A DNA stretch of 50,310 bases from Clostridiales bacterium (GTDB lineage: Bacteria > Bacillota > Clostridia > Christensenellales > Pumilibacteraceae), in assembly GCA_022508425.1 (NCBI GenBank), contig JAFLVF010000003.1, positions 1 to 50,310 of the forward strand. Direction: 5' to 3'. Of this stretch, positions 49,882 through 50,310 are shown in pieces; position 1 is the first letter of the stretch, and each line of letters starts with the position of its first letter. The position numbers and the translations under genes are program-made. Below the pieces are notes generated by a model that was not told the origin of the DNA, did no database searches, and saw only the letters and a program-made list of their open reading frames with translations.

Positions 49882-50031
49882 ATGAATACACGCGTATGCA
49901 TCTGCTGCGGCAAGGAATACCCGATAGAAAAGATTTTGCACTGCACGTCGTGCGGAAGCTGCTTTTGCGAACGGTGCGCTCAAAAGCTCCACGGCACGGA
50001 ATGCGCCAAGGACCTATCATACTTCGATTGA
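49882..50031 (+). CDS. Small zinc-ribbon-like protein (49 aa)
   Basis: MNTRVCICCGKEYPIEKILHCTSCGSCFCERCAQKLHGTECAKDLSYFD*: spaced CxCC/CxxC pairs; followed directly by a terminator. Shorter than the supplied ORF-track cutoff; no strong SD. Confidence 0.6.
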   Translation: MNTRVCICCGKEYPIEKILHCTSCGSCFCERCAQKLHGTECAKDLSYFD

Positions 50032-50053: not shown

Positions 50054-50088
50054 AAAGAGCGGACTCGGTACAACCGAATCCGCTCTTT
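50054..50088 (+). terminator. Rho-independent-type terminator after the zinc-ribbon ORF
   Basis: AAAGAGCGGACTCGGT-aca-ACCGAATCCGCTCTTT with one mismatch, followed by T-rich GTCATTTATT. Confidence 0.7.
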
Positions 50089-50159
50089 GTCATTTATTAT
50101 CTGTTTGTCTGAATCGACGGCGTAGTCGCGGCGCGAGAGCAGGAAGCCAAGTGCCGACC

Positions 50160-50191
50160 GACGGGAGTTTAGTAAAACCTAAATGACCGAG
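50160..50191 (+). repeat. 32-bp exact repeat, copy 1 (GACGGGAGTTTAGTAAAACCTAAATGACCGAG)
   Basis: Identical to 50271-50302, 111 bp period. Confidence 0.97.
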
Positions 50192-50270
50192 GGCGGCAAA
50201 CCGATAATGGTGGAAAGAACTATGCTGACGGCGGAGGCCCGCGTCAGACGGGCAACAGGCGACGAGGCGC

Positions 50271-50302
50271 GACGGGAGTTTAGTAAAACCTAAATGACCG
50301 AG
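50271..50302 (+). repeat. 32-bp exact repeat, copy 2
   Basis: Identical to 50160-50191. Confidence 0.97.
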
Positions 50303-50310
50303 CGCCGAGG

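Follow-up and report, generated by a model that had tools for sequence, protein, structure and literature searches.

The window, the 50,310-nucleotide stretch of DNA analysed here, closes with two truncated units in tandem, which belong to what is probably a new family of small, non-autonomous, dispersed hairpin elements, mobile or recently mobile, with a fold specific to one strand. A sequence-only reading had proposed one large non-coding RNA (ncRNA) continuing past the window. Found instead was an element of ~123 nt (TGACGGCGTA...TACGCCGTCA), defined in full by iterative profile searches and spread over the order, for which the 1.83-Mb assembly of the same genome gave 45 BLAST matches and 71 covariance-model matches, the latter count including fragments and several weak matches. 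The element has the properties of the MITE-like small dispersed repeats (ERIC, YPAL, BOX, RUP), being short, non-coding, organized as an inverted repeat and present in many dispersed copies.

Two incomplete units at the contig edge

The 32-mer GACGGGAGTTTAGTAAAACCTAAATGACCGAG occurs twice on the plus strand, at 50160-50191 and 50271-50302, with starts 111 nt apart, and both copies lie 3' of the last ORF, in the ORF-free segment where the duplication had been reported. Segment 50100-50310 folds with z = -4.2 relative to shuffled sequences, and each 32-mer forms the apex of a larger unit. The first of these, unit 1 (50115-50197, plus strand), detected as an nhmmer/covariance-model match, covers model positions ~2-84 and is devoid of a 3' arm; its apical part is 32-mer copy 1, whose arrangement as CGG-GA-GTTTAG-loop-CTAAAT-GA-CCG had been given correctly. 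It is followed by a 28-nt linker, AAACCGATAATGGTGGAAAGAACTATGC (50198-50225, plus strand), also located between the units of the L009, L012 and L037 arrays, and then by unit 2 (50226-50310, plus strand), which has a type II core (AGACGGGCAACAG...) and is interrupted by the end of the contig, so that its 3' arm is missing. Because the window covers unit 2 only up to about position 85 of its 123 and unit 1 is without its 3' arm, neither unit is complete. The "strong hairpin" described between the two 32-mers, at 50225-50247, does fold, but it is not a separate structure: for want of the 3' arm, the 5' arm of unit 2 folds back on itself here. In complete copies, the same 5' arm pairs with ...CGCCGTCA ~100 nt downstream. 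On the other side, a terminator-like intrinsic hairpin (50054-50099, plus strand), recognized in the sequence, belongs to the preceding small ORF (49882-50031; 49 aa, rich in cysteine); it lies outside the element and marks its 5' flank.

The final 49 nt of the window (50262-50310) recur without a mismatch as nt 1-49 of contigs C67 and C120 of the same genome (BLAST), which makes the repeat the most likely cause of the contig end. The assembly breaks at these elements, leaving the true right neighbour, probably C67 or C120, ambiguous. Arrays in this genome consist of truncated units with the conserved linker, followed by one complete element. On the folding strand, the arm retained by the partial units is the 5' one, and they have a common end point; a retro-copy origin was set aside on these features, which suggest a composite element or slippage. 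Near secA of a Clostridia metagenome-assembled genome (MAG) from sheep colon, three elements are found in direct tandem (L327, 2309-2676), a layout that differs from these truncated-unit arrays. Short remnants with outer-arm sequence only, resembling internal deletions, are located behind nusG in L165 (G017) and L149 (G002).

A search of the window with cmscan gave no Rfam match at the gathering threshold, and permissive E-values applied to complete copies and distant relatives gave nothing worth keeping over the element. As nothing in Rfam matches, the raiA-type RNA suggested by the sequence-only reading is unsupported. That raiA, ROOL, GOLLD, OLE or another known large ncRNA is cut by the window is hardly conceivable: the pointer to it was the genomic neighbourhood alone, as given in that reading, whereas neither the window nor the complete copies match in cmscan and the unit is only ~123 nt long and dispersed. 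The element would be a previously unlisted family absent from Rfam, although a large survey of RNA candidates from the human microbiome (PMC8040213) might include it without annotation. Two other identities were rejected. An intrinsic terminator was discarded since the inspected flanks show no T-run behind the hairpin on either strand, and a phage origin since one IMG/VR copy with its flanks was unmatched in an annotated phage collection. Divergent copies do occur on IMG/VR contigs classed as viral (L331, L332, L334, L336).

Fold, folding strand and distribution

The copies are of two core types, which were aligned apart: alignment A3 contains 48 type II copies (AGACGGGCAACAG...ACGTAGCCCGT) and alignment A4 contains 46 type I copies (AGAG/AGAC..AGGAAG...CTGACGAAC). 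Each gives a single long imperfect stem, composed of P1 (~10 bp), inner helices interrupted by conserved purine-purine internal loops, and an apical tandem-GA hairpin. Paired cells amount to 96.5% in A3 and 95.0% in A4. Shifting the partner by 1-3 columns lowers this to 23-39%, and 500 shuffles yielded no value as high as those observed, both controls correcting for kinship of the copies only in part. The outer stem is found as TGACGGCG, GAGTGCG, TAACTGCG, CGGCGGCG, TTTTGGCTTA and TGAAAGCACA, with the partner largely matching in each variant, and the GA/GA apical motif is kept in 48/48 type II and 45/46 type I relatives. The complementarity seen in the flanks of the two 32-mers is borne out by the covariation check: the outer stem varies but stays paired, and two-sided changes that preserve pairing are found at 30 of 38 pairs (A3) and 31 of 37 pairs (A4).

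These data bear on the earlier opposition between an RNA structure and a DNA repeat, which is supported in part: the fold is strand-specific and covarying, with the GA/GA motif, but the sequence is a dispersed repeat all the same. Similarly, a dispersed repeat without flank pairing had been named as the case that would speak against an RNA structure; the copies are dispersed, but their flank pairing is conserved. Since the element also folds under DNA parameters, folding draws no distinction between RNA and single-stranded DNA. The folding strand itself can be read from the mismatches. Among isolated mismatches within the hairpin, scored in a strand-neutral way, G.T exceeds A.C (63 vs 20) and G.A exceeds T.C (143 vs 7), the G.A counts being inherited and so non-independent; in the consensus helices of the two core types, G.T exceeds A.C by 142 to 19 and by 133 to 23. 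Judged from these counts, the folding strand is the plus strand, as previously read.

Copies are present in all 19 sampled congeners (2-33 each), and several other genera of the family have 24-45 copies, the element being found in some, not all, genera. The A4 model gives a match in 126 of 297 sampled genomes and in 46 of the 121 genera of the order; across a phylum-wide sample, only 9 of the 348 other genomes match, with much weaker scores. By SecA, the nearest named records are MAGs labelled "Clostridiales bacterium" (90% identity), one of which has a strong copy (L255).

Placement at gene ends and empty sites

Placement was assessed in 157 arrays from the window's own genome and its relatives, with ORFs called mechanically, without annotation, and gene names obtained from reading the sequences. 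In 96 arrays the 3' side of the element is no more than 12 nt from a stop codon; for the 5' side, this is the case in two. In 109 arrays the element has a gene end at its 3' side and is also flanked by a neighbour at its 5' side; 89 of these are within 12 nt of the stop codon, compared with 20.7 expected under uniform placement in the spacer. Copies are thus found 0-12 nt behind the stop codon, and the TGA is often supplied by the element itself. Many of the exceptions immediately follow the T-run of a terminator, and in one member of the order a copy is directly 3' of a tRNA; mis-called ORFs probably explain part of the remaining ones. In L117 (G005; element at 1366-1489), the upstream gene runs 18 nt into the element and stops at its TGA, meaning that the insert replaced the C-terminus of that protein. 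The same 18-nt read-in pattern is found in three further copies. In the subfamily with the outer stem TTTGAAAG, AGGAG and a start codon regularly follow 20-40 nt further on (L093, L102, L103, L117, L078, L013:4539-4662), as if it were specialized for tight operon junctions.

Because stop codons cluster at the 3' side of the element, the folding strand is antisense to the preceding gene. An independent antisense ncRNA made from each copy, the sequence-only proposal transferred to single elements, would agree with the RNA-like plus strand (tandem G.A, conserved G-U pairs, strong covariation), but this is improbable given that inspection of the flanks by eye showed neither a promoter-like sequence common to the upstream sides nor a T-run after the 3' arm, and that Rfam contains no match. 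Another type of hairpin with this placement is the attC site of integrons, an imperfect bottom-strand hairpin immediately behind a stop codon. Similar placement, length class and bottom-strand fold could make the copies attC-like recombination sites, recognized through the bottom strand just past the stop codon. We consider this very improbable, since the neighbours, as identified by eye, are not a cassette array but housekeeping genes from scattered loci, and RYYYAAC/GTTRRRY is missing from the conserved ends of alignments A1, A3 and A4, also by eye; the element differs from attC in having neither core sites nor a cassette array.

Comparison of loci between species, using whole-locus and joined-flank searches, revealed empty sites. 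The nusG-rplK and rpsG-fusA spacers are filled in some species, with differing core types, and vacant in others. The copy of L093 (G015) is missing in 7/7 relatives, in which just TAATATG or a similar sequence lies between this gene pair, and that of L117 (G005) in 4/4 relatives. At the site of the L103 copy (G007), G015 and G009 have an intact overlapping stop/start, TGATG, which the element interrupts, and L106, L115 and L116 have one empty comparison each. At L093, L103 and L117, a Shine-Dalgarno sequence is located between the element and the downstream start codon; it may have come with the insert, by duplication or through later selection. As for target-site duplication, a flanking repeat (AAGGAGA) was found at L093 alone, and none is clear at L103 and L117. 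Copies at separate loci within one genome reach 97.5% identity, and copies at the same locus in different species are not always mutual closest relatives. The simplest reading, by parsimony, would be an evolutionarily recent insertion between the stop codon and the next start; the direction of change comes from this parsimony argument, the empty sites being comparative, with no transposition event observed.

Two other inserts were encountered at these loci. The rpsG-fusA spacer of G006, G010, G013, G016 and G002 (L179, L183, L191, L193, L194) contains a longer palindrome-like insert, for example CTTGCTGTCGATTTT...CGACGTGGCGCTGCTACGAC, in species that do not have the ~123-nt element at this site; it may represent another family sharing this placement. 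The right flank of L116 (query positions 2497-2573) contains TTTTGTCATTCTGAGCGTAGCGAAGAATCTCAACC, a second dispersed repeat that is present several times in G015 and dozens of times in G004, G009 and G012.

The position behind potD, nusG and rpsG is common to several species, which could reflect vertical retention for function. On this basis, the element could be domesticated and cis-acting, its copies being kept for a host function of the 3'-end hairpin (mRNA 3'-end stability, control of termination/reinitiation, or protection from antisense transcription), so that conservation reflects function and not transposition. The order-wide conservation of the fold, the identical position behind these three genes and the consistent placement at stop codons and terminators all agree with it. 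However, the strand that folds best (G.T, tandem G.A) is antisense to the gene, so the mRNA bears a poorer version of the hairpin; close species differ in presence at the same gene, and copies that follow terminators would be mostly untranscribed. Domestication is accordingly rather unlikely. Selection against harmful insertions, taken alone, does not readily account for the fixed orientation and for the proximity to stop codons in long spacers.

Possible mobilization and comparison with known repeats

For a mobile or recently mobile element, which is the preferred reading, copies would spread via a trans-acting putative enzyme that recognizes the folded strand and targets the 3' ends of genes. 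At the RNA level, a copy within an operon would confront the terminating ribosome with a strong hairpin and uncouple translation of the next gene, which would then use the Shine-Dalgarno sequence lying between the element and the start codon. Two resident enzymes were considered and rejected as mobilizers. RAYT/IS200 transposases were discarded because the own genome (G000, assembly ~94% complete) has no Y1 gene, with zero matches to PF01797 (Y1/IS200/RAYT) while control genomes were positive. A resident reverse transcriptase was discarded because RVT_1 (PF00078) is absent from six copy-rich genomes (G000, G005, G007, G015, G028 and G033). It is conceivable, though doubtful, that the element represents a class of mobile elements recognizing gene 3' ends as such, through the folded bottom strand or an antisense RNA, in one orientation; insertion at the stop codon or terminator would then be tied to termination of translation or transcription. 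If so, a gene-end-recognizing element has shaped operon spacing throughout an order of Clostridia, and if insertion truly targets gene ends, it would provide a tractable case of a mobile element sparing its host. Moreover, insertions in operons (nusG-rplK, rpsG-fusA and overlapping gene pairs) constitute natural experiments on translational coupling. The element also helps to account for assembly breaks in such genomes and adds a structured family missing from Rfam.

Small palindromic repeats are found in many bacteria. The movers proposed for them are trans-acting transposases, most of them unidentified (PMC2229807), and the mobilization suggested here is modelled on this analogy. YPAL/RU-2 of Yersinia is a dispersed palindromic element of 168 bp with known empty and filled sites, termini without TA, target duplications of variable size and no known enzyme (PMC2229807). 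The present element resembles it as a palindromic dispersed element with empty and filled sites, and is set apart, by description, by its host group, its order-wide fold, and its near-fixed orientation and stop-codon placement. ERIC (IRU, RU-1) of enterobacteria is an imperfect palindrome of 127 bp that inserts in operons and, in one orientation, is reported to destabilize upstream transcripts (PMC2229807). Length class, imperfect palindrome and operon insertions are alike, but ERIC ends in TA and carries inverted repeats at its termini, whereas here the outer stem is variable yet paired. The BOX repeats of Streptococcus pneumoniae are modular and dispersed, with large folds, and 36 copies provide the stop codon of a gene (PMC3049150). 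Dispersed repeats with large folds that supply stop codons are thus common to both, but BOX is made of separate A, B and C modules, in contrast with repeats of truncated unit and linker followed by one full element. REP/BIME sequences, associated with RAYT transposases, are palindromic and structure-based, and often lie 3' of genes (PMC2817692). They are similar in palindrome, gene-3' location and structure; however, REP is much shorter, with a GTAG/GTGG head, compared with ~123 nt, a variable outer stem and no Y1 in the genome. Altogether, the strand-specific fold conserved across an order, in addition to the bias in orientation and placement, distinguishes the element from ERIC, YPAL and BOX. 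To our knowledge, few small palindromic repeats have a covarying fold that is both deeply conserved and specific to one strand, together with an almost invariable orientation and position at stop codons.
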